Source: Salinilacihabitans rarus
Lineage (GTDB): Archaea; Halobacteriota; Halobacteria; Halobacteriales; Natrialbaceae
Direction of reading: 5' to 3'
DNA length: 64,000 bases
Assembly (NCBI RefSeq): GCF_024296665.1
Contig: NZ_CP100762.1
Span: forward strand, 620,001-684,000
In this document: one piece after another, positions 14,955-28,723 of the stretch
How the letters are laid out: every line of letters begins with the position of its first letter
Numbering within the stretch: the first letter of the stretch is position 1
Program-made: the position numbers and the translations under genes
The notes under the pieces: model-generated
Seen by the model: the letters and a program-made list of their open reading frames with translations, nothing else
What the model was told of the DNA's origin: nothing
The model's database searches: none

Positions 14955-15283
14955 CGGGGTTCGTCGACGCCGACGACGTCGAGCCGATGCTCGAACCGGA
15001 GTACGTCGGCGCGCACTCCGCGCTCGCGAGTGCCGAGTGCCAGCACTGGGACGACGCCGACCCCGACGTCGAACGCACGGTCCCGACGAAGTGCGGCCAA
15101 CCAGCGACGCACACGATCGTCCTGCTCGGGAAGTACGGCCTGCGGGAGGTCGCGATGTGCGACATCCACGGCGAACCGGAGGACGTCACCGCCGGCGAAC
15201 GCGAGTGGACCGGCGCCCTGCGCGAGCACATCGTTGAAGCGACCGACGAGGAGGTCGCCGACCACATCGGGGGTGACGCCTGA
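14951..15283 (+). CDS. hypothetical Cys/His protein (110 aa)
   Basis: Starts MTGFVDADDVEPMLEPEYVG. Two cysteines and a His (AECQHW, PTKCGQPATH, AMCDIHGEPE) are spaced as in a small zinc-binding fold found in haloarchaeal accessory genes (CGQPATHTIVLLGKYGLREV then MCDIHG). It is ATGA-coupled to both neighbours. Function unknown. Confidence 0.55.
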   Translation: MTGFVDADDVEPMLEPEYVGAHSALASAECQHWDDADPDVERTVPTKCGQPATHTIVLLGKYGLREVAMCDIHGEPEDVTAGEREWTGALREHIVEATDEEVADHIGGDA

Positions 15284-15756
15284 TGGTCGACGCGGAGGTC
15301 CGCCCCGGCGACGTCGTCCACGACCTCGTCGAGCGGGGAAAGATGCAGGTCGTCGCCATCGCGGCCGACTCGGTCGCCGCCTACCGCGAGCGCGAGGACT
15401 TCGACCTCGCGGCGTACAAGAGCCACCCGCTGCTCGGCGTCGGTGACGACGAGCCGGTCTACACCTGCGTCTACCTGCCGGACGCACCGACGGCCACCTT
15501 CAGCGGGACCTACGACTTTCCGCGCTCGCGGCTGGCGCGCGTCCCCGTCGAGGAGGCGAACGCCGACCTCGACCGCATCCAGAACGCGCTGGCGATCGAC
15601 CTGCTCGAGAAGCTGTTCACCCGCGCGGCGGAGGATGACGAGAACGCGGTCGCGGTCCTCGAACGCTACGCGACCGACGCCGGGATCGACGCGGACGCCG
15701 TTGCGGCCGCGCGCGAGCTCGCCGCGGCCGACCAGATCGGAGGTGACGGGGCGTGA
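15283..15756 (+). CDS. haloarchaeal hypothetical protein (157 aa)
   Basis: Begins MVDAEVRPGDVVHDLVERGK with a beta-rich first half (MQVVAIAADSV, VYTCVYLPDAPTATFSGTYD) and a helical C-terminus (IQNALAIDLLEKLFTRAAED, AVAVLERYATDAGIDADAVA). The start PGDVVHD recalls SH3-like domains of haloarchaeal provirus proteins. No catalytic motif. It is coupled to both neighbours by start-stop overlaps. Function unknown. Confidence 0.55.
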   Translation: MVDAEVRPGDVVHDLVERGKMQVVAIAADSVAAYREREDFDLAAYKSHPLLGVGDDEPVYTCVYLPDAPTATFSGTYDFPRSRLARVPVEEANADLDRIQNALAIDLLEKLFTRAAEDDENAVAVLERYATDAGIDADAVAAARELAAADQIGGDGA

Positions 15757-16157
15757 CCCTCCGCGAGCGTTTCGGCCTCGGCTCGGAGGCCGGGCCGCAG
15801 GCCGAGGACGTCGACGTCGACGACCTGCTGGCGGCCGTCCGCAACCGGCGGCGACGCCACCTCGTCCAGCATCTCGCGCGCGACCACGGGCCCGAGGACG
15901 TCGTGACGATCTCGCAGCTCGCGGAGTACGTCGCCGCCGTCGAGTTCGGCCCCGATTTCGACGGGGCCGAGCGCAAGGCCGTCTACGTCGCGCTCTACCA
16001 GACCCACCTCGACGCGCTCGAAGACGTCGGCGCCGTCGAGTGTGTCGACGACCGCGAGCGCGCGTACCGTCCGGGGCCGAACGCCGCGGCCCTCGCCGAA
16101 GTGATCGACGTCGCCGAGCGCGTTGCCGGTGAGACCGTGAGGGGTGACGAGGCGTGA
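15753..16157 (+). CDS. DUF7344-like winged-helix protein
   Basis: GTG start overlapping the previous TGA. The core VDDLLAAVRNRRRRHLVQHL, VTISQLAEYVAAVE, then VYVALYQTHLDALEDVGAVE and RERAYRPGPNAAAL is the abundant haloarchaeal winged-helix family also represented at 11593-12000. It probably binds DNA. Being in the middle of the operon, it may regulate the element's own genes; that is inference. Confidence 0.7.
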   Translation: MTLRERFGLGSEAGPQAEDVDVDDLLAAVRNRRRRHLVQHLARDHGPEDVVTISQLAEYVAAVEFGPDFDGAERKAVYVALYQTHLDALEDVGAVECVDDRERAYRPGPNAAALAEVIDVAERVAGETVRGDEA

Positions 16158-16894
16158 TCGCCGGCACCCTCGCGTTCCTCGTCGAGCCGGCCGCCGAGCC
16201 GCTCGCGAACTACCACGACACCCACCGCGCACTCCACGTCGAGTCGGCAGTCAGCTACCTCGACGACCTGACCGTCCAGCGTGGGACCGTCGCCGGGCGC
16301 GTCCCGAAAGAAGAGGAGATCGTCTCGATGGACGGCCACGAGATCGAGGTCGAACGCGAGACGCGCACGCGCACGGTCGCTTCGGACTGGATCGGCGACG
16401 TCACTGGCGGCGGCTGGCTCGTCGCCGAGCGCACGCACTCCCCACGGCAGGAGGACGAACACCTCGACGTCGACTGGCCGTTTACGGCGTTCGTCAAGCG
16501 CACGGGCGTCGAGATCGAGCCGGTCGCCCTCTCACCCGCGCAGTTCGTCCGCAACCAGCGCGACGCCGACCGCGATTACACGATCGAGATGGCCTCGCGC
16601 GAGTACAACGTCGACGACGTCTCGATCCAGTGGGGGCAAGGTGCGCTCAAAAAAGACGCCATCAAGTCCGACGTCGGCGTCGCGCTGACGACCCTCTGGC
16701 GCGGCGAGTTCGTCCGGCTGGTCCTCTACGGCTCTGGATACTTCGCCGTCTGGGAGCCCGCCGAGTGGCCGATCGAGGAGTTCGCCCGGTTCGTCGACGA
16801 GGAGATCGTCCCGATTGCCTTCGTCCCCGAAGAGGACGAGACCGAGGCCGAACAGGAGACGCTCGACGGCGACCGCGAGCGGGTGAGCGCCTGA
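16154..16894 (+). CDS. haloarchaeal hypothetical protein (246 aa)
   Basis: Begins MIAGTLAFLVEPAAEPLANY. It is mostly beta/alpha mixed, with segments HVESAVSYLDDLTVQRG, DWPFTAFVKRTGVEIEPVAL, FVRNQRDADRDYTIEMASRE and DVGVALTTLWRGEFVRLVLY. I see no catalytic motif and cannot place it in a family. It is ATGA-coupled to the winged helix before and to the DUF5131 gene after. Co-transcription with the DUF5131 gene makes it a candidate partner, but it does not look like the TcmP partner known for that family. Confidence 0.55.
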   Translation: MIAGTLAFLVEPAAEPLANYHDTHRALHVESAVSYLDDLTVQRGTVAGRVPKEEEIVSMDGHEIEVERETRTRTVASDWIGDVTGGGWLVAERTHSPRQEDEHLDVDWPFTAFVKRTGVEIEPVALSPAQFVRNQRDADRDYTIEMASREYNVDDVSIQWGQGALKKDAIKSDVGVALTTLWRGEFVRLVLYGSGYFAVWEPAEWPIEEFARFVDEEIVPIAFVPEEDETEAEQETLDGDRERVSA

Positions 16895-17673
16895 TGTCGT
16901 TCACCGAGACCAACATCCGGTGGACGGACACGACGTGGAATCCCGTCCACGGGTGCTCGAAGACGAGCGAGGGGTGTCGGAACTGCTACGCCGAGGCGGT
17001 GAGCCGGCGCTACGGCCACACCGAGGCCGACTGGACGCACGTCAATGCAGAGGCGAACGTCCAGCTGAAAACGCACTACCTCGGCGACCGCCTCCGCGAC
17101 CCGCGCTGGGTGTTCGTCAACAGCATGTCTGACCTGCTGCACGCCGAGGTGCCCGACGCGTTCGTCGGGGCAGTCCTGGAGGCGTGCGCGGACATGCCCG
17201 CCTCCGCGTTTCAGGTTCTCACGAAGCACGGGCCGGACGCCGATCGGGACGTCCCGGTCGGCCTGCCGGAGAACGTCATGCTGGGCGTGAGCGTCGAGTC
17301 GGCGCGCCGCGAGTACCGCCTCGACTGGCTTCGCGAGCAGGACGCGACGACCCGGTTCGTCAGCTTCGAGCCGCTCGTCGAGCCCGTCACGGACCCTGAC
17401 CTCGCGGGGATCGACTGGGCGATCATCGGTGGCGAATCCGGCGCCGCCGACCACCGACGGGAGATGGATCCCGCGTGGGCGCGCGCCCTCGTCACCGCGT
17501 GCCGGGAGCAGGACGTCGCGGTGTTCTTCAAGCAGCACAGCGGGCCGCACCCGGAGCGCGACGTCCGCCTCGATCTCGGTGACGGCCCCGAACGAATCGA
17601 GGAGTTCCCCGCGCTGCCCGACGGCGTCGTCCCAGCACCGCAGGAGTTCCTTACCGACGAGGTGGTCGCATGA
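16894..17673 (+). CDS. DUF5131 (phage Gp37/Gp68-type) three-Cys protein
   Basis: The 259-residue protein begins MSFTETNIRWTDTTWNPVHG and carries the three-cysteine motif C21-x6-C28-x2-C31 (CSKTSEGCRNCYAE) that marks this radical-SAM-like family. It continues with VFVNSMSDLLHAEVPD, FQVLTKHGPD, LGVSVES, RFVSFEPLVEPV and IIGGESGA, in the order usual for the family. Members are found in phages and mobile elements of bacteria and archaea; their reaction is unsettled, and a nucleic-acid modification role is often suggested. The ATG overlaps the upstream stop, and a 47-codon gene follows with the same coupling. Confidence 0.85.
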   Translation: MSFTETNIRWTDTTWNPVHGCSKTSEGCRNCYAEAVSRRYGHTEADWTHVNAEANVQLKTHYLGDRLRDPRWVFVNSMSDLLHAEVPDAFVGAVLEACADMPASAFQVLTKHGPDADRDVPVGLPENVMLGVSVESARREYRLDWLREQDATTRFVSFEPLVEPVTDPDLAGIDWAIIGGESGAADHRREMDPAWARALVTACREQDVAVFFKQHSGPHPERDVRLDLGDGPERIEEFPALPDGVVPAPQEFLTDEVVA

Positions 17674-17813
17674 CGCTCCGCTACGAGGTCGTCGGCGCGG
17701 TCGATCGGTCGGTCGGGGACTCGCTCGACCTCGGCGGCGAGACCATCCTCGTCGACGACGGCGACGACGACCTGCTGCTCGCCCAGCCCACCGGCGGTGA
17801 TGCCGATGAGTGA
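17670..17813 (+). CDS. small acidic hypothetical protein (47 aa)
   Basis: Starts MTLRYEVVGAVDRSVGDSLD and ends in an acidic run. Its ATG overlaps the DUF5131 stop (ATGA) and its TGA overlaps the start of the next gene, so its place in the chain supports it being translated. There is no known domain. Confidence 0.5.
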   Translation: MTLRYEVVGAVDRSVGDSLDLGGETILVDDGDDDLLLAQPTGGDADE

Positions 17814-18075
17814 CGGTAACGCTTACTACGCCTTCGCGAACGGCGTCCAGACGGAAACGGTCTGCTACACCAATATCCGGAACACGCGCGCCTGCGTCGT
17901 TGTTCCGGAGGATATCCCGGTCGACCACCTCCACGAGGTGATGCACCTCTCCCGGTGCAACGGATTCGTCTGTACGCATGTCAACCCGCTCGACGGCGAA
18001 GCCTTTGACTTCGAACTCGAGTTCACGCCGATCGACGCCGTCGACATCAATCGGGGTGACGGCAGCGATGAGTGA
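17806..18075 (+). CDS. hypothetical protein (89 aa)
   Basis: Starts MSDGNAYYAFANGVQTETVC; the ATG at 17806 overlaps the upstream TGA and is favoured over GTG/ATG codons at 17797-17800. The protein has three cysteines and a His-rich middle (HLHEVMHLSRCNGFVCTHVN). It may bind metal. The next gene starts inside its 3' end (18068). Function unknown. Confidence 0.5.
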   Translation: MSDGNAYYAFANGVQTETVCYTNIRNTRACVVVPEDIPVDHLHEVMHLSRCNGFVCTHVNPLDGEAFDFELEFTPIDAVDINRGDGSDE

Positions 18076-19198
18076 CTGCGACGTCTGTGGCGGTCGCTCG
18101 TACCTCTGCCGGGAGTGTCGCCACGAGGCGCTCGAACGGCGCCACGGGACGCCTGCGGACAACCTCGACGATGACGTCGAGTGCTGGGTCCAGGACCTCA
18201 CCGAGATGTGGCACGCCTCGATGTACTTCGAGGGCGAGCGCCACGTCGCGGCCTGCGGCACGATCCTCGAGACGCCGGTCGCCGGCGTTCGCGACGACCC
18301 GCGGTTCGTCGACGGCGCCGACGCCTGCGAGGCCTGTGTCGCCTCCCTCGACCGCGAGAGCGACGAGCAGCGGCTCCCCGACGGCGGGGAGTTCGAGCGC
18401 GCGAGTGAACTGCGGGCGGATGGTGGTCGGCGACTCGACCCGGCGATCGACGTCGGTGCCGTTCGCGAGCGCGTCGACTGCTGGGTCCGGTTCCCCAGCC
18501 AGCGCGCGCAGGCGATCCACGTCCCCACGGACGCCGACCGCGAGGCGCCGGCGACGCCCTGCCGGCACAAGCCCCGTATCGGAGCGCCGAAGGCGTACGA
18601 CCTCGGTCACTTCACCGACGCCGACCTCGAGGCTCGGCTCTGCGAGGAGTGCGCCTTCGAGGCGCTCGGCATCCGGCGCGAGGTGGACACGAGCAAGTTC
18701 GGCCGGTCGCCTGCGGACGTCCTCGCCGCGGCCGGCCTCGACGAGCCCGACGATCGCGATCACGAACTCGTCACCGACGGCGGTCGTAATACAGCGACGA
18801 GCGAGAGTTATCGTTCGTTGTCACCCGGCAATCAGGCCCAGGGCTCCGACGATCGCCATTCCAACTCCCATAATTCGGGTGAGTGCCACTTTCCAATCTG
18901 CTGGTTCGACTTCGGACCAGGACCGCTTGCTCCCGATCGAGTCAAGTTGCTCCTCGAACCGCGCGAGCTTATACGGCCAGATCGCACCAGGGGCCCCGAA
19001 AACAAGAAGGAAGATTGCCAATGGCGTTTCCATATTTCGCCCTGCCAGTGTCAAGTAATAACTCTTCTGGGACGACTCTTCAGGCCAGCAGTCGCTTCAG
19101 ATCCCGACTCAGTTCCTTCTATCCAGTGCGCAAAGCAACGAACGCTCCGTGACATTTGCACGGGAGCTGAGCAGCGGGGTGGTCGGGATGCCGAGTAA
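18068..19198 (+). CDS. zinc-ribbon hypothetical protein with probably artificial C-terminal extension
   Basis: The first ~240 residues look real: MSDCDVCGGRSYLCRECRHE opens with a CxxC...CxxC zinc site, followed by further Cys/His clusters (HVAACGTI, DACEACVASL, TPCRHKPRI, ARLCEECAFEALG). After about base 18795 (HELVTDGG, a typical haloarchaeal C-terminus) the frame runs on through lower-GC DNA, antisense to a small membrane gene (18821-19033). The last ~130 residues therefore look fortuitous. I infer that an insertion removed the original stop codon. The gene is coupled to its upstream neighbour by overlap. Confidence 0.55.
   Translation: MSDCDVCGGRSYLCRECRHEALERRHGTPADNLDDDVECWVQDLTEMWHASMYFEGERHVAACGTILETPVAGVRDDPRFVDGADACEACVASLDRESDEQRLPDGGEFERASELRADGGRRLDPAIDVGAVRERVDCWVRFPSQRAQAIHVPTDADREAPATPCRHKPRIGAPKAYDLGHFTDADLEARLCEECAFEALGIRREVDTSKFGRSPADVLAAAGLDEPDDRDHELVTDGGRNTATSESYRSLSPGNQAQGSDDRHSNSHNSGECHFPICWFDFGPGPLAPDRVKLLLEPRELIRPDRTRGPENKKEDCQWRFHISPCQCQVITLLGRLFRPAVASDPDSVPSIQCAKQRTLRDICTGAEQRGGRDAE
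18821..19033 (-). CDS. DUF6199-like small membrane protein (70 aa)
   Basis: Begins METPLAIFLLVFGAPGAIWP and ends with a second hydrophobic helix (MGVGMAIVGALGLIAG), with a charged loop between (PYKLARFEEQLDSIGSKRSW). Two-helix proteins of this layout are a known haloarchaeal family of unknown function. The ATG at 19033 has a TATA-like TTATTACT about 27 bases upstream. It is the only minus-strand gene inside an otherwise plus-strand chain, and its GC is lower, so it was probably inserted. Confidence 0.7.
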   Translation of the reverse strand: METPLAIFLLVFGAPGAIWPYKLARFEEQLDSIGSKRSWSEVEPADWKVALTRIMGVGMAIVGALGLIAG

Positions 19199-19529
19199 CG
19201 GCGCGAACGTCGGTCCGATCATCTTCGCGAACGAGATCGCGCGCTCGCAGCTCGTCAACGAGGGCGAGGTCGTCTCGTTCCGGCAGGGCCGGCGAACCAC
19301 GGGCGAGACGTGGTGGCGAAAGAGCCGGACCAGCCCGAAGGAAGGTGACGTCCTCGTCGAGGAGATCGGGCCCGTCGATCCCGGCCTGCCGTGCAGCCGG
19401 TTCGAAGCCCACGCCGACCTGAGCGGGTTCGCCTCTGCTGACGAATGGCGGGAGGCGATCTACGACCTCTACGGCCGCTACCCGGACGGCTACCTCTACC
19501 GGGTTACGGAGCGTGGTCGCGATGCGTGA
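19188..19529 (+). CDS. ASCH-like hypothetical protein (113 aa)
   Basis: Starts MPSNGANVGPIIFANEIARS. The order of elements (VNEGEVVSFRQGRRTTGETW, GDVLVEEIGPVDP, FASADEWREAIYDLYGRYPD, YLYRVTE) resembles small ASCH/PUA-type domains that bind RNA or modified nucleotides, found often in haloarchaeal viruses. The assignment is tentative. The ATG at 19188 is preferred to the one at 19149, which adds residues of low-GC insertion origin. Confidence 0.5.
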   Translation: MPSNGANVGPIIFANEIARSQLVNEGEVVSFRQGRRTTGETWWRKSRTSPKEGDVLVEEIGPVDPGLPCSRFEAHADLSGFASADEWREAIYDLYGRYPDGYLYRVTERGRDA

Positions 19530-19740
19530 CGACGAGGGCGTCGTCTACGTGGCCTGCCACAGCGCGAGTCGGCGCGTCTACCACACCGACCCCGACTGCC
19601 GGTACGTCGCGCAGGCCGACCACCGCGTCCAGACGTGGCAGCGCGAGACTGCCGAGGCGTGGGACCTCCGAGAGTGCCAGCGGTGTGCTGGCGCCCTCGG
19701 CCCCGCCGCCGACACCGACGTCGGAGGTGAGTCCGCATGA
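19522..19740 (+). CDS. small Cys/His protein (72 aa)
   Basis: Starts MRDDEGVVYVACHSASRRVY and has the pattern YHTDPDCRYVAQAD...CQRCAGALGP, a His/Cys arrangement seen in short phage and provirus proteins that may bind zinc. Its ATG overlaps the end of the upstream gene and its own TGA overlaps the next start. Function unknown. Confidence 0.6.
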   Translation: MRDDEGVVYVACHSASRRVYHTDPDCRYVAQADHRVQTWQRETAEAWDLRECQRCAGALGPAADTDVGGESA

Positions 19741-20966
19741 GCCACGTCGACGACGCGCTCCATCGGCTCGCCGACGTCGTCGAGGCCCTCGAAGAGACGG
19801 CGGTCGACGTCGACCGCGCGCACGTCCTCGACTGGGACGACCAGACGGTCACAGGCCAACTGGTCGTGATCGCACCGGCCGACGGCGACCTCGCGATCGG
19901 GGCGGTCGCGCCGGCGACCGGTGCCGACGAGTCGGTAGCTGACGACCAGAACGCGGACACTGATCAGGAGGCCGACGAGTACGCCTGTGACGTCCCCGGC
20001 TGTGACTACACGGGATCGGAACGCGGTCTCGCGATCCACAAGGGCCGTGCGCACAAGGGCGGCGGCGACGCGGACGACGAGCCCGAGGACGAGGACGACG
20101 ACACCGGTGAGGACCCGTTCGTCGAGGCACGGAAACGCCAGCAGGACAGCGAGGAGAGCGACCCCTCCACCGAGGACGACACTACGTCAGAGGCCACGTC
20201 AGAGGCACCCGATGTCGACCTCGCGGAGGCGGACGCGGACGACGGCGCCGAAGGATCCGGCGCCGCCGGCGACGACGACCAGGACGAGAGCGCGGCGGCG
20301 GACGGCGCCCAAGAGACCGGTGCTGAATCCGAGAACGAGACCGAAACCGAGGCCGAAGACGGCGCCGACGCTGGGTCGTCGCGACGCTACCAGTGCGCCT
20401 GCGGCGTCGCCTGCGAAACCAGCTTCGAGTACTACGTCCACCGCACCGAGGACCACGGCGTCCCGCAGGCACACCTCGGCTACCTCGAACCCGGCGAGTT
20501 CGAGGAGATCGTTCGCGAGGGGGAGACGCTCCAGGACATCGTCGACGCGACCGGCTGGAGCCCCGAGCGGACGCTCCGGGCGCTCGGCGTCTACGGCCTC
20601 TCCGACGTCGTCGGACCCGACGGGATCGAACTCTCGAATCTGACCGACTACGAGTTCGAGGGCGTTGCCGCCGTCGACGAGGCCGGCGACGAGGAGACGG
20701 AGGCCGTCGACGAAGTGGCCGAGGAGCCTGAGCGATCGGTCGCGAACGATGGCGGCGCCGTCGCCTTTCGCGACTACTCCGGGTCGGCAGGTAACGCGAA
20801 CCGATGCTCGAATTGCGGCGCCCACCTCGACAAGAAGTTCACCCGGGTCTTTGAGCCCGACGAGGAGGGCGCCCCGCGGGCCTGCCCGAACTGCGACAAC
20901 CTCGTCCGCGAGGCGGACGCCCAGACGATCCGTGAGAAGCGCAGCAAGCGCGGGGGTGGTGTCTGA
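19737..20966 (+). CDS. multi-zinc-finger acidic protein (409 aa)
   Basis: The largest gene of the chain. An N-terminal helical part (about 1-40) is followed by a C2H2 finger (CDVPGCDYTGSERGLAIHKG, ending RAH), a long Asp/Glu-rich low-complexity linker (about 115-215), a second Cys/His finger (CACGVACETSFEYYVHRTED, ending H), a helical domain (LEPGEFEEIVREGETLQDIV, WSPERTLRALGVYGL) resembling a helix-turn-helix, and a C-terminal CSNCG...CPNC ribbon. The combination suggests a DNA-associated regulator or scaffold. I know no matching family. It sits before three short terminal genes and the integrase. Confidence 0.65.
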   Translation: MSHVDDALHRLADVVEALEETAVDVDRAHVLDWDDQTVTGQLVVIAPADGDLAIGAVAPATGADESVADDQNADTDQEADEYACDVPGCDYTGSERGLAIHKGRAHKGGGDADDEPEDEDDDTGEDPFVEARKRQQDSEESDPSTEDDTTSEATSEAPDVDLAEADADDGAEGSGAAGDDDQDESAAADGAQETGAESENETETEAEDGADAGSSRRYQCACGVACETSFEYYVHRTEDHGVPQAHLGYLEPGEFEEIVREGETLQDIVDATGWSPERTLRALGVYGLSDVVGPDGIELSNLTDYEFEGVAAVDEAGDEETEAVDEVAEEPERSVANDGGAVAFRDYSGSAGNANRCSNCGAHLDKKFTRVFEPDEEGAPRACPNCDNLVREADAQTIREKRSKRGGGV

Positions 20967-21067
20967 TGTGCGAGCGCGCGCAGCTGACCCCTAAGGGCAC
21001 GATCGGGTTCCTCGCCGCCTACCTCGCGGTCCTCGCCGGCGCCTACGTCGTGGGGGTGATCGTGTGA
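20966..21067 (+). CDS. single-pass membrane micro-protein (33 aa)
   Basis: Starts MCERAQLTPKGTIGFLAAYL and continues AVLAGAYVVGVIV: one hydrophobic helix after a short polar head. The ATG overlaps the stop of the zinc-finger gene and the TGA overlaps the next ATG, so it fits exactly into the overlapping chain. Confidence 0.55.
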   Translation: MCERAQLTPKGTIGFLAAYLAVLAGAYVVGVIV

Positions 21068-21444
21068 TGGCCACTGACACCGACGCCGACAGCGATGCCG
21101 ACCCTCGCCGGCGCTGGAACCCCGCGACCGACCCCGCGATCGACGAGGCGATCCGCGAGCGATACCGGGCCGTCGAGATGGCCATCGGGCACGTCAGCGA
21201 CCACGTCTACCGCAAGTGGGCCCGCCGGGCGCCCGCCCACACCGAGTGCGACGTCGTCACAGCGTGGCACGACGGCGAGCCCGTCCACTACCCGAGCGCG
21301 GCCAACGGCGCCGTCGCGCGCTACCACCGCGAGAGCGATATGCTCGTCCTCGCGCGGATGGGCGCGCTCGTCTCGACCGTCCCGCTGGGCGACCGCCCGC
21401 GTGACGAACAGCAGTACGTCCGCAATCAGGTGACCTCCGAATGA
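21067..21444 (+). CDS. haloarchaeal hypothetical protein (125 aa)
   Basis: Starts MATDTDADSDADPRRRWNPA; an acidic head, then a helix (IDEAIRERYRAVEMAIGHVS) and a mixed region (DVVTAWHDGEPVHYPSAANG, MLVLARMGALVSTVPL). No catalytic motif is visible. ATGA-coupled to the membrane micro-gene before it and to the short gene after it. Function unknown. Confidence 0.55.
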   Translation: MATDTDADSDADPRRRWNPATDPAIDEAIRERYRAVEMAIGHVSDHVYRKWARRAPAHTECDVVTAWHDGEPVHYPSAANGAVARYHRESDMLVLARMGALVSTVPLGDRPRDEQQYVRNQVTSE

Positions 21445-21647
21445 GTACGAGCAATACGCCGTTTGATTCAATTCGCAACGACGACGACGTCCGTGCCGGC
21501 ACTGAAGAGCTTGCAGAACGTGACGGGAAACTCGGCGCACTCGCCCGGATCACGCTCGCGATCGCGGACGGACAAGAACCGAACCCGGACGACTGCGAAG
21601 AAGCTGGCCTCGAGACGCTCCCGAAACTCGCGCGAGGTGAGGAGTGA
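21441..21647 (+). CDS. small acidic hypothetical protein (68 aa), end of chain
   Basis: Starts MSTSNTPFDSIRNDDDVRAG; largely helical and acidic (LGALARITLAIADGQEPNPD). Its stop at 21647 lies two bases from the integrase stop (21650), so the plus-strand chain and the integrase converge. Function unknown. Confidence 0.5.
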   Translation: MSTSNTPFDSIRNDDDVRAGTEELAERDGKLGALARITLAIADGQEPNPDDCEEAGLETLPKLARGEE

Positions 21648-23961: not shown

Positions 23962-24654
23962 TCAGCCGTCCGAACTCGCGTTCGAACTCGACTCCGGGAG
24001 GCCGGCGTCGACGGCCTCCAGGTACTGTTCGAGGAGGGCGGGAAACTCCCGGCCCCTGAGATAGCGCAGGCCGAAGTCCTCCGTCCAGGCGACGATGCCG
24101 GTGTCCTCGGTGACGACGCCCGCGTCGAGTTCGCGGGCGAGGATCAGGAGGTCGAAGTCCTCCCGGGAGTCGAGGACGCCCCGTCGCATCGCCCGCCGGT
24201 ACTTCTCGCGCAGGTCTGCGATCACCGCGTCGACCTCGGTCTTGTACTCGTGGTCGTCGAGGGGTTCGTTCGCGGAGGCCTCCGCGCGCCTGACGGCCTC
24301 CTCGGAGACGCGCAGGCCGCGGTCGACGCGGTCGCTCATCTCGTCGACGAAGCTGTAGACGACGTTCGCGGGGATCGTGACCGCGTACCGGTCGGGGTGT
24401 TTGCGGATCACCCAGGTGTTGAGCCTCGCGAAGAGGTCCTCGTCGACGTCGCGGTCCGCGAGCATCGTCGTCAGTTCGTCGTGGATCGTCGGCGGCACGT
24501 AACAGGAGATGCCGAGGTGGAGGCGAGCCCGCGCGATCAGGTCGAGGAGGCGGTGGATCGCCTCCTCGGCGGACTCGTCTCCCCGACGGATCTCCTCGGT
24601 GAGGAACGTGGAGGTGTCGAGGACGAACCGCTGTTTGAACGGATCGGCTGCCAT
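23962..24654 (-). CDS. RNA ligase partner/HARP-type PIN nuclease
   Basis: The 230-residue protein from the ATG at 24654 ([20 protein letters not shown]) belongs to the PIN-like family called RNA ligase partner, also known as homologues of Aquifex RNase P (HARP), which can process tRNA 5' ends as a single protein. PIN acids are visible in VLDTSTF near the start and in [20 protein letters not shown] near the end, around the helical insertion of the family. A matching RNA ligase gene lies 0.55 kb away on the other strand. Haloarchaea also have normal RNase P, so its role here is uncertain. The longer start at 24681 is not needed. Confidence 0.85.
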
Positions 24655-25206: not shown

Positions 25207-26331
25207 GTGGCGGAGCCGTACCACAGGCGACTCGGGATGGGGGAGGAGGCCTTCGAGGACCTCGCCGAGCACCTCCAACGTCGCGAGTACGAGGGCCGGG
25301 AGTACCGACACGTCCCCGACTACCGGCGCGGCGTCGAGCGCGGGACGGTCCTGCTGGAGGGGGTCGTCGTCCGCGGGTTCCCGAAGGTGCCCCGGACGCT
25401 CGTCCTCTCGGAGGGCGTCCCGAACCACTTCGAGGACGCCGAGGTGGCCGTCGAGGAGAAGTTAAACGGGTACAACGTCCGCGTCGCGTGCGTCGACGGC
25501 GACGTCCTCGCGTTCACCCGCGGAGGGCTGATCTGTCCGTACACCACGTGGCTGCTCGACCGGCGCCTCGACGTCGACTTCGAACCGATCTTCGAGGCCT
25601 ATCCGGAGGCGATGCTCTGTGGCGAGGTGATCGGCCCGGAGAACCCCTACACGAGCCACGACTACCCCGCGGTCGACTCGATCGCCTTCCGCGCGTTCGA
25701 CTGGCGCGACCGCGAGTCGGGCGACCCGCTGTCGGTCCGCCAGCGCCGCGAGCGCTACGAGTCGTTCGGCGTCCCGCAGACGCGGCTGTTCGGCGTCTAC
25801 GACGTCGACGAGACGGCCGCGGCCGTCCGCGAGGCCGTCGCCGAACTGGACGCCGAGGGTCGCGAGGGCGTCGTGATGAAGTCGGCCGACGCGCGGACCC
25901 AGTTGAAGTACACGACCTCGGCGGCCAACCGGGGCGACCTCGCGTTCGCGTTCTCGCTGCCGTTCGACTACGGGCAGGCGTTTATGTTCCGGCGGCTCAT
26001 CCGCGAGGCGTTCCAGTCGGTCGAGTGGGACGAATCCGACGAGCGGGCCCGCGAGCGGGCCCACGACCTCGGCGAGGCGATCCTGCTCTCGATGCGCGAC
26101 TCCCTCCGGACGGTCGACGAGGGCGGCACGGTCGGCGAGCGCCACACCGTCCGGGGCGACGACGAGGCGATCGACGCGCTGGTCGAACACCTCCGCGGTC
26201 AGGGGCTCTCACTCGAAGTCGAGACGGACCGGCGCGAGGACGGCGACCGGGTGCTCACGTTCCGCAAGCGGGCGCAGTCGACGAACGACAAGATCCGCAA
26301 CTACCTCGACGGACACGTCGTCCGCGAGTGA
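25207..26331 (+). CDS. archaeal ATP-dependent RNA ligase (Rnl3/Pab1020 type)
   Basis: A 374-residue nucleotidyltransferase that seals or circularises RNA through a lysyl-AMP intermediate. Motif I is EEKLNGYNVR with K85 as the adenylated lysine; later motifs include FTRGGLICPYTT, EVIGPENPY, FRAFDW and EGVVMKS. Length and order match the archaeal RNA ligase 3 family. The GTG at 25207 is the likely start; an ATG at 25237 would remove ten residues. The HARP-type RNA ligase partner gene lies just upstream on the other strand, the association that gave that family its name. Confidence 0.9.
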   Translation: MAEPYHRRLGMGEEAFEDLAEHLQRREYEGREYRHVPDYRRGVERGTVLLEGVVVRGFPKVPRTLVLSEGVPNHFEDAEVAVEEKLNGYNVRVACVDGDVLAFTRGGLICPYTTWLLDRRLDVDFEPIFEAYPEAMLCGEVIGPENPYTSHDYPAVDSIAFRAFDWRDRESGDPLSVRQRRERYESFGVPQTRLFGVYDVDETAAAVREAVAELDAEGREGVVMKSADARTQLKYTTSAANRGDLAFAFSLPFDYGQAFMFRRLIREAFQSVEWDESDERARERAHDLGEAILLSMRDSLRTVDEGGTVGERHTVRGDDEAIDALVEHLRGQGLSLEVETDRREDGDRVLTFRKRAQSTNDKIRNYLDGHVVRE

Positions 26332-26393: not shown

Positions 26394-27389
26394 ATGAGCG
26401 ACGAGTTCCGCTCCCTTTCGAAGAGCGACGTGGAGCGATTGCGAGACGACGTGGCGACCCACGACCTCCCGGCGGCCGTCGAACCCGTACTCGACGAGTA
26501 CGCGCGCGTCGCGGGCGACCGCGACTCGTTCATCTGGCGGTGGCTCCACCGGCTCTTTCCGCACGTCAGGCTCTCCTGTGTCGATCCGGCGGCGGCCGAG
26601 CGAGTGCGGACCGCCAAACTGCTCGCGTCGATCTACGTCTCGGCCGTCGACGACGTCGCCGAGTCCCACGGCGACCGGGCCACGTTCGAGGAGGCGTCGA
26701 AGGTCCCGTTCGACCACCTGCATCCGCGCCCCGACCGCGAGGGGGTCGACGCCGACCTCGTCTCGTTCGCGGCGACCGTCTGGGACCGGTTCGATGGGAT
26801 CGTCGCCGACGCCCCCCGCGCCCCGGAGTTCGCGGACGTGCTCCGGTTCGACTTCCGGCAGGCGCTGACCGCGATCGAGTTCTCCGCGCTCGCGAACCGG
26901 CACCTCGAACTCCTCGCCCCGGAGGAGGTCAGCCGCTACGACGCCCACAACATGCTGGTCTACGTCTGCGCCGACGTCGATCTGTTGCACTCGCCCGAAT
27001 TCGACGCGACGGAGTTGGCGCCGCTGCGGCGGGTGCTCGCGCGCACCCAGCGGATGGCGCGGATCGGCAACTGGCTCACCACGTGGAAGCGCGAACTCGC
27101 GGAGGGCGACCTGAGTTCGGGCGTGATCGCCCGCGCGCTCGATCGCGGGGTCGTCACGCTGGCGGAACTCGAGGCGCTGCGGGACGAACCGACGGACGAG
27201 CGGGTCGAGACGATCGCCCGACGGATCGACGAAAACGATGTGGAGGATTTTTACCTCCGGCAGTGGCACGAGGACTTCGCCGCCGTCGAGGCGCTCGAAC
27301 CCGTCATCGAATCGGTCGACGTCGAGTCGTACCTCGAGGGGTTCGAGACCGTCCGCCGGTACCACGTCGCCAGCGAGGGACTGAAGTGA
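26394..27389 (+). CDS. class I terpene-synthase-like protein
   Basis: The 331-residue all-helical protein carries every class I terpene synthase landmark: a DDxxE motif (D86-D87-V-A-E90), an NSE-type triad N226/T230/E234 (NWLTTWKRE), a basic residue R181 about 45 residues before it as in pyrophosphate sensors, and a C-terminal RY pair (R322-Y323). The 140-residue distance from DDxxE to NSE is exactly that of canonical enzymes. Such enzymes bind Mg2+ and prenyl diphosphates and form cyclic terpenes. Overall similarity to known synthases is not obvious by eye, so substrate and activity are inference. Its TGA overlaps the start of a regulator gene (27389). Confidence 0.6.
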   Translation: MSDEFRSLSKSDVERLRDDVATHDLPAAVEPVLDEYARVAGDRDSFIWRWLHRLFPHVRLSCVDPAAAERVRTAKLLASIYVSAVDDVAESHGDRATFEEASKVPFDHLHPRPDREGVDADLVSFAATVWDRFDGIVADAPRAPEFADVLRFDFRQALTAIEFSALANRHLELLAPEEVSRYDAHNMLVYVCADVDLLHSPEFDATELAPLRRVLARTQRMARIGNWLTTWKRELAEGDLSSGVIARALDRGVVTLAELEALRDEPTDERVETIARRIDENDVEDFYLRQWHEDFAAVEALEPVIESVDVESYLEGFETVRRYHVASEGLK

Positions 27390-28207
27390 TGACCGCTACC
27401 GGACCACGAGAGACCCACACCGTCGAACCGCCACCCGACGAGGACGATTGGCCCGCGGGGATCGATCGGGACCTGCTCATCGAGGCGGTTCGCCGCTCGA
27501 ACGTCCTCGCCGAACTACGATCGGGGCCCGCCGACGCCAGCGAACTGGAAGCCGCCCTCGACGTCTCCCGGTCGACGATCCACCGGGCGACGAAGTCGCT
27601 CGAGGAACTGAACCTGATCGAGAAGTCGAACGGCCGGTTCGAACTCACCGGCGTCGGCGACGTCGTCGCCCGGGAGACGGACGTCTACGGGCGGCGCATC
27701 GCGGCCGCGATCTCGCTCGAACCGTTCCTGAACCTCGTCGACGTCGAGGACGTCCCGATCGAACACTTCGCCGACGCGACGGTGACGGTGCCGAAGCCGC
27801 GCCAGCCACACTTTACCGTCCGCCGGATCATGGACCTGATCGAGGAGGCCGACTCCCTCCGGCTTTTCACGTCGGTCATCTCCCCGTTCTACGTCGACGT
27901 CGCTCACCGCGAGATCCTCGAGGGGACCGAGGTCGAGGCGATCTTCGACGCCGACATCCTCGACATCGTCCTCGCGGAGTACGAGTCGGAGGCGAGGGGG
28001 GCGATCGAGACGGGGAACTTCGACGTGTACGTCCACGACTCGGTCCCGTTCGAACTGTTCCTCCTCGACGGGAAAATCGGGATGGCCGCCCACGACGAGA
28101 ACGGCATCGCGCGGGTGTTCGTGGAGGCGGACTCCCCGGAGGCGATCCGGTGGGCCCGTCGCCTCTACGACCGGTACCTCGCGGAATCGCGGCACAAAGC
28201 CCCCTGA
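27389..28207 (+). CDS. FilR1-like winged-helix transcriptional regulator
   Basis: A 272-residue regulator. The N-terminal winged helix (LLIEAVRRSNVLAELRSGPA, LEAALDVSRSTIHRATKSLE, LTGVGDVVARE) is followed by the alpha/beta domain of archaeal FilR1-type regulators (VRRIMDLIEEADSLRLFTSV, AHREILEGTEVEAIFDADI, VYVHDSVPFELFLLDGKIGM). It starts within the stop of the terpene-synthase-like gene (ATGA) and so shares its transcript. It may control that gene; this link is inference from the overlap. Ligand unknown. Confidence 0.85.
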   Translation: MTATGPRETHTVEPPPDEDDWPAGIDRDLLIEAVRRSNVLAELRSGPADASELEAALDVSRSTIHRATKSLEELNLIEKSNGRFELTGVGDVVARETDVYGRRIAAAISLEPFLNLVDVEDVPIEHFADATVTVPKPRQPHFTVRRIMDLIEEADSLRLFTSVISPFYVDVAHREILEGTEVEAIFDADILDIVLAEYESEARGAIETGNFDVYVHDSVPFELFLLDGKIGMAAHDENGIARVFVEADSPEAIRWARRLYDRYLAESRHKAP

Positions 28208-28408: not shown

Positions 28409-28723
28409 ATGAGTTCCACGATGACCGATCGACCATCCCCGGACCTGAAGTACGACGCCGACGCCGAGGCGTACGTTCTCGTCCCCTCGCCCGAGGCGGA
28501 CGTGAGCGTCGAACTCGTCCTCGCGATCGCCGAGATAACCGACCGCGACCCGCTCGAGATGCGTCCGATCTACGAGTGTTGCGATCCGGAGACGATCGAC
28601 GCGCTGTGTGCGGCCCGTCGAAACGACGCGGTCGAGATCGACGGCGACGTCTCGGTGACGATCGCCGACCACCGGGTGACGATCGAAGCCGACGGGACGT
28701 TCCGCGTCGAACCGCCGGCGTGA
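28409..28723 (+). CDS. HalOD1 output-domain protein
   Basis: The 104-residue protein has the HalOD1 pattern: VELVLAIAEITDRDPLEMRP, PIYECCDPETIDALC, and the closing hairpin VSVTIADHRVTIEADGTFRV. It resembles the island gene at 10064-10381. Such single-domain proteins are abundant in haloarchaea and their partners are unknown. GAATATAAGCG near 28321 is a possible TATA element but lies about 85 bases upstream of the start. Confidence 0.8.
   Translation: MSSTMTDRPSPDLKYDADAEAYVLVPSPEADVSVELVLAIAEITDRDPLEMRPIYECCDPETIDALCAARRNDAVEIDGDVSVTIADHRVTIEADGTFRVEPPA

Follow-up and report, generated by a model that had tools for sequence, protein, structure and literature searches.

Archaeal membranes are built of isoprenoids, yet cyclic terpene chemistry in archaea is barely charted, and the locus described here raises the question of whether a haloarchaeon encodes a terpene synthase that is controlled by signalling genes at its side. 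The window, a 64,000-nucleotide stretch of the Salinilacihabitans rarus genome (contig NZ_CP100762.1, positions 620,001 to 684,000), contains an open reading frame with an ATG start that a preliminary description took for a class I terpene-synthase-like gene coupled to its own regulator. The GC contents at the three codon positions of this frame were 0.74, 0.42 and 0.92, a coding pattern with strong third-position GC. The elements from which the protein had been recognised were all present, namely DDVAE, the N226/T230/E234 triad, R181 and a C-terminal RY pair (Table 1), and the spacings of 140 residues from DDxxE to NSE and 96 residues from NSE to RY were confirmed. However, shuffling of the protein produced a pair of DDxx[DE] and [ND]x3[ST]x2[KR]E at a spacing of 120 to 160 residues in 349 of 200,000 shuffles (0.17%), and thus a few such pairs are expected per proteome and the motif on its own is little proof.

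Table 1. Coordinates of the features discussed, in window positions unless stated otherwise.
Feature	Position	Strand	Evidence
Class I terpene-synthase-like protein, 331 aa	26394..27389	+	Translation, 88-sequence alignment, AF2, Foldseek, weak Pfam PF19086
DDxxE motif DDVAE, residues 86-90, putative Mg2+ ligands	26649..26663	+	D86 88/88, D87 88/88, E/D at 90 88/88
NSE-type triad NWLTTWKRE, residues 226-234 (N226, T230, E234; basic R233)	27069..27095	+	N226, T/S230, R233, E234 each 88/88
R181, not conserved	26934..26936	+	R at 181 in 37/88, R at 180 in 14/88
RY pair, residues 322-323, not conserved	27357..27362	+	R+Y together in 11/88
FilR1-like transcription regulator (HVO_A0261_N winged helix + FilR1_middle)	27389..28207	+	Pfam E 1.1e-21, 1.1e-33
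Small protein with halobacterial output domain 1 (HalOD1), third and recurrent member of the locus	28409..28723	+	Pfam PF18545 E 5.4e-17
Natrinema ejinorense island, L167/L168	contig positions about 543,960-560,400		

Homologues with about 40 to 52% identity to the window protein were spread over many other haloarchaeal genera. The family alignment comprised 88 sequences, of which 50 were non-redundant at 70%, and pairwise identities were as low as 21%. The complete signature, DDxx[DE] and Nxxx[ST]xx[RK]E, was kept by all 88 sequences, with the seven key positions (D, D, E/D, N, S/T, R and E) intact in every row, and the motif of the window protein is therefore beyond chance. DDxxD and Nxxx[ST]xx[RK]E were also retained in the intact methanogen relatives recovered by a profile search, with the form NxxxTxx[RK]E in those of Methanosarcina. 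These motifs are the ones that a review gives as conserved in class I enzymes, i.e., DDxxD/E and the NSE/DTE triad (PMC10563020). The second residue of the NSE motif was W in every aligned sequence and never D, and it was T, A or C in some methanogens. The Methanosarcina branch was long, and N-T or N-A replaced N-W in its NSE motif. In addition, R43, W50, D153, D196, R212, R223, W231 and D239 were invariant residues specific to the family. The two remaining elements of the preliminary description fared differently. An arginine expected to act as a pyrophosphate sensor about 46 residues before the NSE asparagine was not conserved at either position 180 or 181, nor was the C-terminal RY pair, and since R181 was found in only 37 and RY in only 11 of the 88 rows, neither is a feature of the family.

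The AlphaFold (AF2) model of the window protein, built from the 88-sequence alignment, had a pLDDT of 94.9 and a pTM of 0.92 and adopted the alpha terpenoid-synthase helical bundle. The best 50 Foldseek matches in the PDB were all class I terpene synthases or related prenyl synthases (probability 1.00, E-values from 3.1e-4), with modest TM-scores of 0.43 to 0.60 and large rmsd values. The top matches were pentalenene, hydropyrene and T-muurolol synthases, at 11 to 17% identity over the fold alignments. In the model, the helix of residues 205 to 237 bears the NSE triad, the helix of residues 65 to 90 ends in DDxxE, and a helix break was observed at residue 188, presumably at the site of the G1/G2 break of terpene synthases. 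Computation thus shows both the fold and the conservation of the metal ligands, and the terpene-synthase reading stood in its fold, DDxxE, NSE and regulator, though not in R181 and RY as conserved motifs.

Profile matches to Pfam Terpene_syn_C_2 (PF19086) were obtained for 72 of the 88 members at E<=1, the best being 2.2e-8. The curated cut-off of 23.7 bits was exceeded by the relatives L024 (25.5 bits) and L056 from Haloarcula sebkhae (32.7 bits), whereas the window protein itself stayed below it (E 0.028, 14.6 bits). Searches of PDB sequences gave nothing significant, either with the window protein in phmmer (Apaf-1 CARD domains at E 0.06) or with the family profile (best match Sat1646, E 0.38, aligned over the NSE helix), and a Haloarcula sebkhae query and a Haloarcula-centred profile returned chance matches only. 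There was no match in NCBIfam. When the family profile was compared with that of 14 Streptomyces synthases, the NSE motif was superposed but the match was weak (probability 4.5%, P 0.009). The insignificant direct Pfam match of the window protein, like the frequency of the motif pair in shuffles, would suit a chance motif in an unrelated helical protein, but the full conservation in 88 sequences, the fold match and the significant Pfam matches of relatives refute this in practice, and we give it hardly any credence. Other enzyme identities were also rejected. A polyprenyl synthase (PF00348) is contradicted by the single DDxxE at residue 86 and the lack of a PF00348 match in Pfam, a phytoene/squalene synthase (PF00494) by the lack of a Pfam match, and a class II terpene cyclase by the absence of the DxDD motif from the window protein.

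Bacterial class I terpene synthases of PF19086, such as pentalenene, hydropyrene, T-muurolol and geosmin synthases, resemble the archaeal family in predicted fold, in size (about 330 amino acids) and in having DDxx[DE] and Nxxx[ST]xx[RK]E at matching spacing. However, differences were found in other residues. In the comparison set, consisting of 14 synthases from a Streptomyces clavuligerus plasmid, the sensor arginine (R174, 46 residues before the NSE asparagine), the NSE asparagine and the RY arginine (R314) were all invariant. The archaeal family has no conserved sensor arginine at -46 and no conserved RY; of such functional residues, just the metal ligands and the basic residue of the NSE motif are invariant in it. 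Furthermore, almost all synthases of the bacterial set have D as the second NSE residue, as opposed to the W of the archaeal family, and the invariant residues of the family listed above also distinguish it from the bacterial synthases. Among them, R43, R212 and R223 are candidates that may supply the missing diphosphate contacts.

Squalene/phytoene and polyprenyl synthases share the superfamily fold with terpene synthases. Those of haloarchaea (PF00494 and PF00348) have two DDxxD-type motifs, in contrast to the one DDxxE and the NSE triad of the window protein, and the Salinilacihabitans rarus genome has separate genes for both, with PF00348 at three loci. A different reaction on the same fold, either that of a prenyl diphosphatase yielding linear alcohols or prenyl transfer to an acceptor rather than cyclisation, would agree with the presence of the prenyl synthase PcIDS1 among the Foldseek matches and with the class I synthases known to form linear products; we nevertheless consider it unlikely, given the single DDxx[DE] with an NSE triad in place of two DDxxD motifs and the lack of any PF00348 or PF00494 match of the window protein in Pfam.

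The proposed coupling of the gene to its own regulator was borne out. The last base of the synthase's TGA stop (27387-27389) is at once the first base of the start codon (ATG) of the FilR1-like gene, a 1-base overlap, and the order of synthase, regulator and HalOD1 protein was also found in Halorussus halophilus (L171) and Halobaculum halobium (L173). In RefSeq, the Halorussus halophilus plasmid has the same order as the window, with a synthase named 'hypothetical', an HTH regulator and a HalOD1 protein. A FilR1-like gene lay directly downstream on the same strand in six distinct lineages (the window, L002/L022, L003, L007, L017/L076 and L171), and other sensor types were found elsewhere. A Bat-like PAS/GAF/BAT/HTH_10 partner occurred in 34 places, divergent in 17, upstream on the same strand in 13 and downstream in 4. 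PAS histidine kinases were the partners at some other family loci, and a PAS-HisKA_2-HATPase kinase adjoined three Methanosarcina-type homologues. Multi-PAS histidine kinases were seen next to the methanogen homologues L133, L135, L138 and L139.

Among 80 named loci, 45 had a sensor or regulator gene (Bat-like, PAS histidine kinase, FilR1-like or HalOD1) no more than 1.2 kb away, and the share of signalling genes among the neighbours of family genes fell with distance, from 29% up to 700 bp away to 5% at more than 3 kb. No such neighbour was recognised for many Natrialbaceae copies. Each neighbourhood arrangement was strongly clustered on the tree, and mere synteny among relatives was considered as the origin of the signalling neighbourhood. 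However, on the tree, which came from a quick search and whose labels omitted the FilR1-like neighbours of L003 and L007, the context must have switched at least 15 times between the seven classes distinguished, and the signalling gene is found divergent from, upstream of, downstream of or fused to the synthase. One inherited fixed locus therefore does not explain the signalling neighbours.

The fused arrangement was represented by two complete proteins from two species and one truncated at a contig end. These are only a small part of the ~160 family frames checked, a count that includes some loci twice. The protein of the halophilic archaeon SHRA6 (505 aa, L070:5446-6963) matched Pfam Response_reg, HalX and Terpene_syn_C_2, the last just below the cut-off, and that of a Halodesulfurarchaeum MAG (481 aa, L055:5494-6939) has a receiver N-terminal to the synthase domain. 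The full synthase motif was retained in both. The third protein, L082, begins at a contig end, inside the apparent tail of a receiver domain. The AlphaFold model of the L070 protein (mean pLDDT 83.2, with the receiver partly low) exhibited receiver-like strand/helix alternation, followed by long helices and the bundle. The long frames upstream of other homologues, e.g., L023, L024 and L148-L151, were checked for receiver domains as well, and no fusions were found. A PAS histidine kinase gene lies immediately 3' of the L055 fusion, and a kinase-type gene is located two genes from the L070 fusion.

Response regulators with enzymatic output domains are known for the GGDEF, CheB and PP2C types. 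The family fusions are like them in that the receiver (with HalX in L070) is N-terminal to a putative enzyme domain, and differ from them in that the output is a terpene-synthase domain, which is in no catalogue of response-regulator outputs known to us. The sensor neighbours and the receiver fusions suggest that the terpene output is regulated and signal-responsive. The same frequent sensors and regulators nearby, the C-terminal position of the synthase domain in receiver proteins and the missing canonical sensor arginine and RY would also be consistent with a catalytically silent prenyl-diphosphate sensor on the terpene-synthase fold, which would bind Mg2+-FPP or Mg2+-GGPP and, through protein contact, inform the regulator next to it of the isoprenoid supply. 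However, a mere binder is expected to tolerate changes, whereas every metal ligand was kept in the 88 aligned sequences and in the intact methanogen relatives, and one paralogue (L083) lies in a biosynthetic island. We regard such a sensor as improbable.

This paralogue, the second copy in Natrinema ejinorense, is only ~38% identical to the window protein. The island in which it lies is low in GC, ~16.5 kb long and bordered on either side by a set of succinate-dehydrogenase-like membrane-subunit genes. Judged by their sequences, its genes include two each of the P450 and FAD-monooxygenase types and two for methyltransferases, together with UbiA, SnoaL, hydrolase and aminotransferase-like genes, and Pfam confirmed the P450, UbiA, SnoaL, both methyltransferases and one FAD-binding protein. 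The island looks like a mobile terpenoid or meroterpenoid cluster. Most homologues, however, adjoin sensors rather than biosynthetic genes, and the window gene has no recognised P450 or other tailoring gene as a neighbour. At three loci (L069:4993-5928, L074:7063-7761 and L080:5020-5934), a gene with the appearance of a short-chain dehydrogenase adjoins the synthase in either orientation and may possibly provide a terpenoid oxidation step.

Fold, motif and context make it likely that the product of the window gene is a catalytically active class I terpene synthase belonging to an archaeal clade, and that the gene is controlled by local signalling. This explanation is favoured by the predicted fold, the motif conserved in 88 of 88 sequences, the PF19086 matches, the L083 island, the three PF00348 loci as substrate supply, the fusions and the signalling neighbours. 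Counted against it were the unconserved sensor and RY arginines, the W in the NSE motif, the low TM-scores, the weak profile-profile match, the Pfam score below the cut-off and the few biosynthetic neighbours. In such an enzyme, DDVAE at residues 86 to 90 and N226/T230/E234 would likely hold Mg2+ ions, R233 may help diphosphate binding, and an allylic prenyl diphosphate from the cell, with FPP or GGPP as the most likely choices, would probably be ionised. The cation would then be quenched or cyclised to a terpene hydrocarbon or alcohol, of which a cyclic skeleton is presumed. Expression would be controlled by the local signal-transduction unit of the overlapping FilR1-like regulator and the HalOD1 protein, as their positions suggest, and in the fused homologues the activity, too, is probably under signal control.

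By analogy with LuxI/LuxR, a terpenoid signalling or signal-responsive system can be tentatively envisaged, although we hold it to be doubtful. A PAS/GAF or FilR1-type receptor would stand beside a synthase making a small isoprenoid signal, and in the receiver-HalX-synthase proteins synthesis would be turned on or off directly by phosphorylation of the receiver; the role of the terpenoid as a signal is speculation.

A family member was present in 121 of 394 sampled haloarchaeal genomes (about three in ten), and the phylum sample added methanogens, including Methanosarcina. All six members found in plasmid records are named 'hypothetical protein'. This is a large archaeal family, so far unnamed, with the fold and metal-binding motifs of cyclic-terpene enzymes. 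The preliminary statement that terpene synthases are hardly described in archaea is outdated. Judging from its title and from two citing papers (PMC12797696 and PMC13235557), the preprint of Samusevich et al. (10.1101/2024.01.29.577750) reports that terpenoids are synthesised in archaea and that archaeal terpene synthases are active; the mere occurrence of such enzymes in archaea is therefore not new. No paper on the window terpene-synthase family was found in literature searches. The conserved, unannotated family provides an experimentally accessible set of candidate enzymes in haloarchaea and Methanosarcina, with which the products that these archaea make, and whether isoprenoids signal in archaea, can be tested in culturable species. 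To our knowledge, neither the association with signalling genes, nor the receiver fusions, nor the change of diphosphate-binding residues has been described.

Some minor observations concern the family and the surroundings of the window gene. L143, L144 and the G608 matches are copies from one methanogen-related family that are truncated or interrupted by stops, with L144 lacking intact motifs; these copies are either decaying or contain an in-frame TAG that is read as an amino acid. In the window, a phage-type integrase gene (PF00589, 21650-22948, minus strand) ends a run of mostly unknown genes at ~15,000-21,450, which is possibly an integrated element beside the synthase locus. Upstream of the synthase lie genes for a PINc ribonuclease (PIN_5, 23962-24654, minus strand) and an archaeal RNA ligase (25207-26331, plus strand). 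The synthase of Halorussus halophilus (L171) also has a gene annotated as RNA ligase partner nearby, and six further loci carry an RNA-ligase-like gene.
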